Source of the DNA: Elusimicrobia bacterium HGW-Elusimicrobia-3
GTDB taxonomy: Bacteria > Elusimicrobiota > Elusimicrobia > Elusimicrobiales > UBA9959
Length of the DNA: 39,277 nucleotides
Direction of reading: 5' to 3'
Assembly (NCBI GenBank): GCA_002840355.1
Contig: PHAL01000002.1
Coordinates: 1-39,277, forward strand
A model generated the notes under the pieces. It searched no databases and was not told the origin of the DNA. It worked only from the letters and a program-made list of their open reading frames with translations. Below are positions 19,918 to 34,116 of the stretch, one piece after another. Positions within the stretch are counted from its first letter, which is position 1. Every line of letters starts with the position of its first letter. A program made the translations under genes and the position numbers.

Positions 19918-21342
19918 ATGAACGACTATAACGAGAAAAAAGAAGAGAAAGGCGGTTTCCTTTCCAGCCTTTCAGCGCTTTTCAGGGGCGGGTCTTCCGT
20001 TGCGGGCGGCGCCTCTTCCGGCATGGGTTCGGCCGGCGGCCTAGGGGGGCTTTTCGCCAGCAAGGCGGGCATAGTCGGCATGGTGCTGGGCGGAGCCACT
20101 ATAGCGGCCGGCGTGGGCGTGGTCTACAACTTCGTGGGCCCTACCTCCAAACCCGTTTACTCTCCCGACCTCTTCCAGAACACCTACTACGAAGAAGAAG
20201 CCTCCAGGGCCGGGCATGAGCGGGCGCTCTCCCGCGACTCCTCCGCGGCCGCTTCCTCTACCCTGGACATGTTCAGGGAACAGGCCAAGAAAGACGGCAT
20301 AGGCCTGCCCGGCGACTCGGCCGGCGCCGGCGCCGAAGCTTCAGCGGACGCCGCTGTTGACGGTTCTTACTCCGACGCTTCTGCCGAGGCTCCCGCGGCT
20401 GACTCCGCGGCGGGCGGCGGCGCGGGCGGCGCGCCCAAACTGCAGGCTTCCGCCGGTTTCGGCGGCGGCAAGGGCGGCGCCGGCAGCGGCACCTCGATCC
20501 CCAGGATGCAGGGCGGCGGCGGACTGGCCGGCGGCATAGGCGCCAAGTTCCAGCCCGTCTACAGGCCCCCGGCCCAGGCCAATACCGGCAGGAGTTCCGG
20601 CATGACGGCGCAGGCCGCCGCGCGGGTAAAGAATTCTCCCAAGTACGCGGTTCCCAATACCAACAGGAAGGGCGCCTACGGCCAGGCCAAGTTCGCCCGG
20701 AACATGGGCAGCAAGGCCGCTTTCTCCGCTGACGCGGCCGGCGCGCGCACCGGGGCCACCGAGGCTTTCTCCGGCGAGACCGGCAACAGCGGCGACGTGG
20801 CCACCCCCGGCACCGGCGCGGGCCTTGGCGGCGCGGGCATAGCCGACGGCGCGTCCCTTAAGGGCAATGATCCCAGCCTGAGCGCCAACGAGTCCAGCGT
20901 GCCCGAACCCAGCAAGCCCGAGGACGTGGACCCGTGGCAGGCGACCGAAGACCGGGCGATGAAGTTTCTAATGATCTCCGCCGGCCTGGTGCTCCTGACT
21001 AAAATCCTGTCCAACTTCAAGTCTCCCATCGCCTACTATGCGGCCATGGTCACCTGCGCTCTGGCCATAGCGGCCGCTCTGGTCGTGATCTTCGCCGGCA
21101 TAGAGATGATGACGAAGTATGACCAGAAAATGATGGGCGGCATTTACGTCCTTACCGGCGTCATGCTGATTATCGCCGCCTGGAACGCCCTGTGCGGGGC
21201 GGCTAAGGCCACCACCGCGGCGGGCAATACCCCGTGGGGCGCCAGCAGTCTCAGCGGCGCCGGGATAAACCTCGGCGGTATGTTCGGCGGTAGCGGCGGC
21301 GCGGCCGCCGCCGGTGCGGCGGGCGCGGCTAAGAAGCCCTAA
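19918..21342 (+). CDS. Gly/Ala-rich protein with N-terminal anchor and C-terminal membrane domain (protein D)
   Basis: A 474-residue protein. It opens with MNDYNEKKEEKGG, a charged start like those of proteins E and G, then a glycine-rich segment and a membrane helix at about 48-72. STLDMF at 114-119, SIPRM near 193, a QAKFARN...GARTGATEAFSGETG module at about 256-290, NDPSLS at 317 and PSKPED at 331-336 all recur in cluster neighbours. From residue 348 onward three hydrophobic helices (about 348-365, 372-398 and 407-429) make a compact membrane domain, followed by a Gly/Ala-rich tail. The C-terminal domain resembles that of protein E (DPWQATEDRAMKFLM against SPWADDLSKIMTYLM). No catalytic motif is visible. 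Good ribosome binding site GGGAGGAG. Confidence 0.7.
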   Translation: MNDYNEKKEEKGGFLSSLSALFRGGSSVAGGASSGMGSAGGLGGLFASKAGIVGMVLGGATIAAGVGVVYNFVGPTSKPVYSPDLFQNTYYEEEASRAGHERALSRDSSAAASSTLDMFREQAKKDGIGLPGDSAGAGAEASADAAVDGSYSDASAEAPAADSAAGGGAGGAPKLQASAGFGGGKGGAGSGTSIPRMQGGGGLAGGIGAKFQPVYRPPAQANTGRSSGMTAQAAARVKNSPKYAVPNTNRKGAYGQAKFARNMGSKAAFSADAAGARTGATEAFSGETGNSGDVATPGTGAGLGGAGIADGASLKGNDPSLSANESSVPEPSKPEDVDPWQATEDRAMKFLMISAGLVLLTKILSNFKSPIAYYAAMVTCALAIAAALVVIFAGIEMMTKYDQKMMGGIYVLTGVMLIIAAWNALCGAAKATTAAGNTPWGASSLSGAGINLGGMFGGSGGAAAAGAAGAAKKP

Positions 21343-28788: not shown

Positions 28789-30495
28789 ATGTACGAAAAC
28801 TTTGCCACCAAGTACCGGCCCGGCGACCTCACCGAGGTAATGGGCCAGGAAACCATCAAGGTCACGCTGCAGAACGCCGTGAAACTGGGCCGCGTGGCCC
28901 ATTCCTACGTCTTCTACGGGCAGCGGGGCTGCGGCAAGACCACGATAGCGCGCATTTTGGCCCGCACGCTGAACTGCCACAAGCCCAAGGACGGGGTGCC
29001 GTGCGGTAAGTGCCCCTCGTGCGTGGAGATAGCCGAGAGCAAGTCGCTCGACGTCATAGAGATAGACGCGGCCTCCAACACGCAGGTGGACAAGGTGCGC
29101 AGCGTGATCGTGGAGCAGGCGTCGTTCGCGCCCTCGCGCGACAAGTACAAGATCTACATCCTCGACGAAGTGCACATGCTCTCCACCGGCGCCTTCAACG
29201 CGCTGCTCAAGACCGTGGAGGAGCCGCCGGCGCACGTGGTGTTCATCATGGCCACCACCGAGCAGAACAAGGTGCCGGTCACCATCCTGTCCCGCTCGCA
29301 GTGCTTCCGCTTCCGCCCCATTTCCGACGCCGACATCATCGCCCGCCTCAAGACCGTGACCGCGGCCGAAAAGATGAAGGCCGAGCCCGAGGCCCTGCGC
29401 CTGATAGCCCGCTCCTCCGGCGGCGCCCTGCGCGACGCGCTCACGATGCTCGACCGCGCGGCCTCCTTCGGCCACGGCGAGATCAAGGCCGACCTGATCA
29501 ACGAGCTGCTGGGCTACCCCGGCGGCGAGAGCGTGAACTCCATGGCGCTGGCGCTGGTCAACCGCGACGCCGCCGCGCTGCACGCCGCCTTCGACCGGCT
29601 CAACGCCGAGGGCTACGACGCGCTGGCCTCGCTGCGCGAGCTGCGCAATAATTTCGCCGAAGCCTTCCTGGCCGCGCAGGGCTTCAACGAGGGCGAGCCC
29701 ATAAAGGGCCTGCCCAAGGGCGTCAGCCCGGCGCTGCTGGCGCGCCTGTCGCGCAAGCTCAACATCATAGTCGAGGAAGTGAAGTTCTCGGACTCGCCGG
29801 CCCTGTCGGCCGAGATCGCCCTGTTCACGCTGATAGAGACCCCGCAGGACCTGGAGGCGTTGGTGCGCCGCCTGGAAGCCATGGAAACGGCCGCCGCCTC
29901 CGGCGCGCCCGCCCAGCCCGCGCCGGTTCCCGCGCAAAAAAAAAATGATTTTCTGACGTCCCCGGCCCCGGCTCCGGCCGCCGCCGCCCCGGCGTCCGCC
30001 CCCGCGGCCGCGGCCCCTGCGGCCAGTTCCGGGGAGCAGCGCAGCGGCGCGGAAGCCTGGAAGCGCCTGCTGGGCCAGGCCTCGTCGCGCAAGCCTGCCC
30101 TCTACAATATCCTGCTGTCGGTAAAGATCGTCTTCGCCGAGGAGAACAAGTGGCGCCTGCTCAGCGGCAACAAGTTCGAGACCTCGATGATAGAGACGGC
30201 CCGCCCCGAGCTCGAGGAGATGCTGGAGAAATTCGCCGGCCGGCGCATCGCGCTGGTCCCCGAGTTCTCGCAGGCCCCGGCCCCGGCGGCGGCCGAGTTC
30301 TCCGCCCCGGAGGACCCGGGCCCCGGGGAACCGACGATGGCCGACCTCTCCGACGAGGAGGCCACCCAGGACGCGCCCCCGGCCCCTAAATCGCCGCACG
30401 CCCCCAGGCAGGTGACCGCCGCCAACGAGCCGGAGCTCAAGCACCTGGCCAAGGTTTTCCACGGCCGCATCACCCGCATAGACAAGGTTAAATGA
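28789..30495 (+). CDS. dnaX: DNA polymerase III subunits gamma and tau
   Basis: A 568-residue clamp-loader ATPase. It carries Walker A G44-Q-R-G-C-G-K50-T, the zinc-binding cysteines after it (C63 and the CGKCPSC group), Walker B in LDEVHML, and the sensor motif SRSQCFRF. Domain III runs to about residue 365. Then comes a Pro/Ala linker and a tau-specific C-terminal domain (EAWKRLLGQASSRKPALYNILLSVKI). Tau links the clamp loader to the polymerase and helicase in the replisome. At codons 383-386 the linker holds a run of ten A residues; slippage by one base either way meets a stop codon within five codons, which should yield a shorter gamma form of about 386 residues. It overlaps recR by four bases (ATGA). 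Confidence 0.95.
   Translation: MYENFATKYRPGDLTEVMGQETIKVTLQNAVKLGRVAHSYVFYGQRGCGKTTIARILARTLNCHKPKDGVPCGKCPSCVEIAESKSLDVIEIDAASNTQVDKVRSVIVEQASFAPSRDKYKIYILDEVHMLSTGAFNALLKTVEEPPAHVVFIMATTEQNKVPVTILSRSQCFRFRPISDADIIARLKTVTAAEKMKAEPEALRLIARSSGGALRDALTMLDRAASFGHGEIKADLINELLGYPGGESVNSMALALVNRDAAALHAAFDRLNAEGYDALASLRELRNNFAEAFLAAQGFNEGEPIKGLPKGVSPALLARLSRKLNIIVEEVKFSDSPALSAEIALFTLIETPQDLEALVRRLEAMETAAASGAPAQPAPVPAQKKNDFLTSPAPAPAAAAPASAPAAAAPAASSGEQRSGAEAWKRLLGQASSRKPALYNILLSVKIVFAEENKWRLLSGNKFETSMIETARPELEEMLEKFAGRRIALVPEFSQAPAPAAAEFSAPEDPGPGEPTMADLSDEEATQDAPPAPKSPHAPRQVTAANEPELKHLAKVFHGRITRIDKVK
29936..29945 (+). promoter_or_regulatory. A10 slippage site in dnaX producing gamma
   Basis: Ten consecutive A bases follow GCGC in the tau linker (normal reading CAA AAA AAA AAT GAT). 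A -1 shift reads AAA then TGA at 29946-29948; a +1 shift reads ATG ATT TTC then TGA at 29954-29956. E. coli and Thermus dnaX use ribosomal or transcriptional slippage at comparable A-rich sites. Confidence 0.75.
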
Positions 30496-31085
30496 AAGCG
30501 CTAGAAAAGATCATCGGCATCTTCCGCCGTTTTCCCGGCGTCGGCCCCAAGCAGGCCGAGCGCTTCGCCATGTACGTGGTAAAGGCCTCCCCCGGCGAGG
30601 TGGAGAGCATGGTGGAAGCCCTGCGCGAGGTGAAGGCCCTGGTCAAGTACTGCCCGGACTGCTACAACTACGCCGAGGGCGGCCTCTGCCCCATCTGCGC
30701 CGACCAGAGCCGCGACCGCTCGCTGATCTGCGTGGTGGAGCGCCCGCAGGACCTGGCCGCCATAGAGAAGGCCAAAAGTTTTTCCGGCGTCTACCACGTG
30801 CTGCACGGCGCCGTCTCCCCGGTGGCCGGCGTCTCCCCGGACCAGATCCGGATGAAAGAGCTGCTCGACCGCGTGCGCGCCTCCGACGGCGCCGTCAAGG
30901 AAGTCATCATCGCCACCAACCCGGACGCCGACGGCGAAGCCACGGCCATGTACCTGACGCGCCTGCTCAAGCCTTACGTGGAAGGCATCACCCGCATAGC
31001 CTACGGCGTGCCGCTGGGCGGCGACATAGACTACATGGACGAGGTCACCCTCGGCTACGCGCTCAAAGGGCGCATAAAGATTTAG
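30492..31085 (+). CDS. recR: Recombination mediator protein RecR
   Basis: A 197-residue protein of the normal RecR length. The N-terminal helix-hairpin-helix motif is FRRFPGVGPKQAERFAMYV; the zinc finger has C54, C57, C66 and C69; the TOPRIM domain runs from about 79 (LICVVERPQDLAAIEKAKSF) to 172, followed by the usual GVPLGGDIDYMDEVTLGYAL end. RecR works with RecO (and RecF) to load RecA on single-stranded gaps. The dnaX-recR order with a four-base ATGA overlap is a common, conserved arrangement and supports both calls. Confidence 0.96.
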   Translation: MKALEKIIGIFRRFPGVGPKQAERFAMYVVKASPGEVESMVEALREVKALVKYCPDCYNYAEGGLCPICADQSRDRSLICVVERPQDLAAIEKAKSFSGVYHVLHGAVSPVAGVSPDQIRMKELLDRVRASDGAVKEVIIATNPDADGEATAMYLTRLLKPYVEGITRIAYGVPLGGDIDYMDEVTLGYALKGRIKI

Positions 31086-34086: not shown

Positions 34087-34116
34087 AAAAAAAAACGCGC
34101 CGGCTGTTGCGCCGGC
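34087..34116 (-). terminator. Terminator-like hairpin just upstream of arfB
   Basis: On the minus strand GCCGGC-GCAACA-GCCGGC is followed by GCG and nine T residues, ending about 14 bases before the arfB ATG. It would stop minus-strand transcription coming from behind the dehydrogenase gene, or act as an attenuator for arfB. Confidence 0.5.

Follow-up and report, generated by a model that had tools for sequence, protein, structure and literature searches.

The window, as we call the whole 39,277-nucleotide stretch of DNA analysed here, contains dnaX, the gene for the gamma/tau subunit of DNA polymerase III, in which a run of ten A is followed closely by stop codons in both alternative reading frames. 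The features of the locus, all on the forward (+) strand, are as follows.

28789..30495, +, dnaX (DNA polymerase III gamma/tau subunit, TIGR02397), full-length tau frame, 568 aa.
28789..29901, +, residues 1-371, clamp-loader part common to gamma and tau; confidently modelled, last helix 355-371.
29923..30039, +, residues 379-417, low-confidence (disordered) linker in the model, with the candidate slip site; hypervariable in the alignment.
29936..29945, +, A10, the putative slippage run, residues 383-386; the only A10 in the genome.
29946..29948, +, TGA in the -1 frame, abutting A10; it would be reached from A8, A11 and A14 transcripts and by a ribosome shifted to -1, with a gamma of 385-387 aa.
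29954..29956, +, TGA in the +1 frame, at the fourth codon; A9 or A12 transcripts would give a gamma of 388-389 aa.
30046..30273, +, residues 420-495, folded tau-only domain in the model, absent from the predicted gamma; W424 and P436 conserved.
30492..31085, +, recR, whose start overlaps the dnaX stop; a neighbour with no part in the slippage signal.

The dnaX product matches the TIGR02397 profile with 381.9 bits (cut-off 250) and is encoded by a gene 93% identical to that of Elusimicrobia bacterium GWB2_63_16, the nearest named relative, which places the host in Elusimicrobiota. Its zero frame is open to position 30495 without a stop, so that tau is made from one single frame, and there is no zero-frame stop directly 3′ of the site of the kind that defines a two-ORF dnaX. 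The zero-frame codons at the site are CAA AAA AAA AAT GAT TTT CTG ACG. The gene has a GC content of 68%, and AAA makes up 15% of its Lys codons outside the site. The A10 is the longest A/T run in the assembly (2,882,586 bases), and a scan of both strands found a run of exactly ten A in dnaX only; this bears out the claim of an earlier, sequence-only reading that such a run is beyond chance where AAG codons would be expected. No promoter or terminator was found at the run.

Runs of at least nine occur at nine places in the assembly, and the eight besides dnaX are of exactly nine. One, at positions 34087-34095 of the window, is intergenic, lying 5′ of a short-chain dehydrogenase-like frame and outside the likely coding part. 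Two A9/T9 runs on contig C90 (G000; 2309-2318 and 2805-2814, L112 and L113) fall at codons 7 and 172 of one 383-aa frame, which begins MAKHPKKNTGGG and looks by eye like a DNA adenine methylase; it is possibly a phase-variable methyltransferase. On contig C14 (G000; 21155-21164, L105) an in-frame A9 occurs early in a high-GC3 frame (0.85) for a putative secreted protein, and this second coding A9 could be a candidate for slippage.

We computed the products of dnaX transcripts with altered run lengths. Lengths of 7, 10 and 13 leave full-length tau, while lengths of 8, 9, 11, 12 and 14 give 385, 388, 386, 389 and 387 aa, respectively; in silico, every slip other than by a multiple of three cuts the product to 385-389 aa. 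The earlier prediction that slippage in either direction yields a gamma-size protein of about 386 residues therefore agrees with the computed sizes, which end just past the folded clamp-loader part. The position of that boundary comes from an AlphaFold2 model of DnaX built from 36 DnaX sequences (mean pLDDT 79.7, pTM 0.58), whose best matches among solved structures, spanning about 360 residues, are gamma/tau chains of the E. coli clamp loader. According to the model, the slip site (residues 383-386) lies at the start of the disordered linker, shortly after the folded clamp-loader part, and a gamma ending there would retain the AAA+ clamp-loader part but not the C-terminal domain specific to tau.

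Within the genus, a dnaX match was found in 31 of 32 genomes (G038 being the one without), and 30 readable genes were left for counting after G038 and one gene with an N at the site (L028) had been dropped. The run is A10 in 28 of the 30, A9 in one and A7 in one (L023). Conservation of the run in relatives, which the earlier reading had proposed as a check, thus holds for 29 of the 30 as A9 or A10; AAG codons at the site, which it had named as counter-evidence, were not seen in the genus. Farther out, genus g14 of the sister family and the other class members sampled do not carry the run. The residues read across the site are QKKN in 28 of the 30 genes, QKKT in L016 and QKN in L023, and AAA accounts for 0.03-0.46 of the Lys codons elsewhere in the same genes. 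Given these residues and each gene's own codon usage, a synonymous redraw leads one to expect a run of at least nine in 0.2 of the 29 run-bearing genes.

The two stops differ in what they tell. A -1 stop abuts the run in 26 of the 30 same-genus genes and lies within 15 nt in all 30; in the 29 run-bearing genes it is observed 29 times against an expectation of 26.2, so it adds little as evidence, the residues largely dictating it. Within 15 nt there is a +1 stop in 25 of the 30 genes, against 2.9 expected from codon shuffling over the 30 genes; for the 29 run-bearing genes the synonymous resampling expects 3.4 and the observed number is 25. The tail values of the resampling (~1e-29) count related genes as if they were independent and should not be taken for true probabilities; the evidence lies only in the direction of the excess and in its recurrence across separate lineages. 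The codons that build the 25 +1 stops are TTA (10), CTA (6), GTA (3), GTG (2), ATA (2), CTG (1) and TTG (1), and since several codon types serve, the stop has been reached by several routes. Leu codons carry 18 of the 25, 16 of these being TTA or CTA, which make up 1.7% and 1.5% (together 3.2%) of the Leu codons in the same genes. A near +1 stop is missing from four of the 29 run-bearing genes (L025, at +29; L027, at +38; L029 and L037, at +41). The only A7 of the genus, in L023 (G052), arose by in-frame loss of three A and keeps its -1 stop, with the +1 stop 98 nt away; this fits loss of the two-way trap along with the long run, in a single case.

These results suggest, with a probability that we put at roughly 0.77, that the A10 is a programmed RNA-polymerase slippage site by which dnaX gives rise to two clamp-loader subunits. 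RNA polymerase would stutter on the A10, producing mRNAs whose runs are shorter or longer than ten. Transcripts that keep ten A, or depart from ten by a multiple of three, would be translated into tau (568 aa); the others would run into a stop, directly after the run in the -1 frame or by the fourth codon in the +1 frame, and yield a gamma of 385-389 aa. Gamma would then enter the clamp loader, at a presumed ratio to tau. RNA polymerase is favoured as the agent because stops are kept in both wrong frames, whereas a -1 ribosomal shift needs only one; because the run is 9-11 long, a length at which transcriptional slippage becomes costly in many bacteria; and because the locus has no A_AAA_AAG, no consistent Shine-Dalgarno (SD) element and two tRNA-Lys genes in its genome. 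According to the accessible part of a 2005 survey, many bacteria show selection against slippage once a run reaches about nine A (PMC1088944). An upstream hairpin as a stimulator of slippage showed no excess (mean z -0.27 in the same genus, -0.03 in the others).

The ribosome could reach the same stops and make the same gamma, by a -1 shift on A_AAA_AAA or A_AAA_AAT or by sliding in both directions on the A run, and we regard this as unlikely, though worth weighing. A -1 shift on AAA AAA or AAA AAT does place the ribosome on the TGA at 29946, and L023, with its A7, its retained -1 stop and its distant +1 stop, fits a mode that uses -1 only, or a decaying site. Simple -1 frameshifting, however, leaves the excess of +1 stops unexplained. 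Two-way sliding would use both stops, and multi-frame sliding of ribosomes on poly-A has been documented in vitro (PMC4363877, as far as its available text goes); the same portion of that study gives at least 11 A as the length that E. coli ribosomes needed, a length reached by one gene only here. The elements that accompany frameshifting in E. coli are also wanting: the in-frame heptamer A_AAA_AAG was not found, no G following the run; no SD stimulator lies upstream of the run in the window, and an SD-like 4-mer occurs in 11 of 59 run-bearing genes, the window's gene not among them. We therefore rejected an E. coli-type frameshift. Downstream RNA structure shows no clear excess, with a mean z of -0.21 in 29 same-genus genes and -0.24 in 30 others, values to be read in the light of GC-rich RNA folding anyway. 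Instead of a sole tRNA-Lys reading both AAA and AAG, the genome holds two tRNA-Lys genes, with anticodons UUU and CUU, a situation that a review, in the part available, associates with dnaX of Thermus and not with that of E. coli (PMC5009743). The sequence-only reading had left the choice between ribosome and RNA polymerase undecided; the retained +1 stop now leans the evidence towards RNA polymerase.

Beyond the genus we counted A runs of at least nine at window-equivalent residues 355-430, excluding runs elsewhere in the gene (L053, L056, L057, L154) and dropping L060 from the family (gene cut before the site), L163 from the sister family and L143 from the class (short frame). Loci were sampled from 41 of 90 sister-family genomes, and the 49 class and phylum loci came from a larger group. 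The run is present in 21 of 26 readable genes from the family's other genera, in phase 1 (15 genes), phase 2 (3) or phase 0 (3), and both stops lie within 15 nt in 18 of the 21 run-bearing genes, against 4.9 expected. The sister family has it in 12 of 40 readable genes, distributed by genus as 0 of 19 in g14, 2 of 2 in g15 and 10 of 16 in g18, with three further genera, of one gene each, lacking it. This family is AT-rich, and a run of nine, expected in 5.1 of the 12, is unsurprising alone; both stops lie within 15 nt in 11 of the 12 run-bearing genes against 4.7 expected, and the sites differ in run phase, residues and stop type. The run was found in none of 26 readable genes from other families of the class, in 2 of 22 from other classes of the phylum and in neither of two readable genes from Nitrospinota. 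In every run-bearing gene the run is 9-11 long.

A quick tree was built from 122 DnaX proteins (it omits L028, L032, L059, L060, L118, L132, L143 and L163 and predates L165-L184); on it the run-presence label needs 9 changes, against 40.6 in shuffles. The A run is therefore either characteristic of the order and lost in places, or the outcome of a few gains. A further reading, to which we give even odds, is that RNA-polymerase slippage in this order works with a stop trap on both sides: shorter and longer transcripts alike would be caught after a few codons, and gamma would result from a slip in either direction. Separate lineages would have rebuilt the trap, varying its stops, phases and run lengths, and one sister-family genus would have lost it.

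Five loci have irregular features. L053, L056 and L057, from the family, lack a run in the linker; their A10 falls instead at window-equivalent residues 461-475, and each wrong frame meets a stop within 10 nt. In these AT-rich genes the run is perhaps chance, perhaps a relocated slip site. In L163 (G130) the dnaX frame is broken at about residues 328-364, which is either an assembly fault or a broken gene; we considered it as a two-ORF dnaX and rejected it, the break lying upstream of the site and the A9 run being intact beyond. L143 (G290), a class-level relative, has a DnaX-like frame of 237 aa only. No two-ORF arrangement was seen among the relatives' dnaX genes examined.

The wider comparison also bears on two readings without slippage. 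The run might be kept for the protein, as a basic linker QKKN serving, for example, as a protease site; the residues are indeed held in nearly the whole genus, and Caulobacter gamma is a cleavage product of tau, according to the accessible text of the review (PMC5009743). We find this very improbable: AAA codons are used where AAG is usual, other genera change the residues and the phase (0, 1, 2) yet keep the run, and a protein-level constraint predicts no stops in alternative frames. Chance, an error of sequencing or assembly, or phase variation at the DNA level is scarcely credible as an account of this run. Homopolymers are error-prone, A runs mutate and the genome has further A9 runs, but the run is present in independently assembled genomes, it leaves the DNA-level frame open in each of the 30 readable genes of the genus, and its presence follows the tree as described above; as a general explanation this one is refuted. 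The reading of the dnaX A10 as a slippage site is, on the comparative evidence, well supported.

Among known systems the nearest is Thermus thermophilus dnaX, in which transcriptional slippage takes place on A9 (Larsen et al. 2000, as reported in the available parts of PMC5009743, PMC1088944 and PMC3711429). In both, one uninterrupted frame encodes tau, the gene contains at least nine A in a row, stops lie nearby in the two other frames, and the genome has two tRNA-Lys genes. The Thermus type is further marked by mRNAs of other run lengths and by a gamma protein at about 1:1 with tau. They differ in that the run here is A10 and its slippage is predicted from sequence, and in the place of the site, about two thirds along the gene here (383/568) and seven eighths along in Thermus (PMC1088944, from the portion available). 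The position is instead that of E. coli dnaX, which uses -1 frameshifting on A_AAA_AAG two thirds along, right after the clamp-loader domains; there, too, the -1 stop comes at once and tau is the unshifted product. Unlike E. coli dnaX, the gene described here is without the AAG and the SD, keeps a +1 stop and belongs to a genome with two tRNA-Lys genes. Two-ORF dnaX genes from GeneTack, 9 of 17 with A10 and with transcriptional realignment proposed for them (PMC3711429, in its accessible part), resemble it in a poly-A of about ten; in those the zero frame stops and the slip makes tau, whereas in the present gene tau is read without any slip and slipping would make gamma. That survey included two Elusimicrobia genomes, neither of them named for dnaX in the part of it available (PMC3711429). 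A literature search, with most subscription papers outside its reach, found no paper on dnaX slippage in Elusimicrobiota.

The phenomenon is known in kind from Thermus dnaX; to this the present gene adds a predicted case from another phylum, one with deep conservation and at E. coli's site position, together with a comparative signature of truncating slippage. Slippage-made gamma would extend to a phylum far from Thermus that is known largely from metagenomes, and the conservation suggests that the gamma/tau pair is under strong selection in Elusimicrobiota. The absence of the run from all 19 sampled genes of g14 offers a dated contrast inside one order: does that genus make gamma another way, or none? 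Truncating slippage was considered hard to predict by sequence comparison in the accessible part of the 2005 survey (PMC1088944). At this site it would leave a measurable mark, stops in both wrong frames kept against codon usage, which can be searched for in other genes; if our reading is true, such paired stops would be a general comparative signature for truncating slippage.
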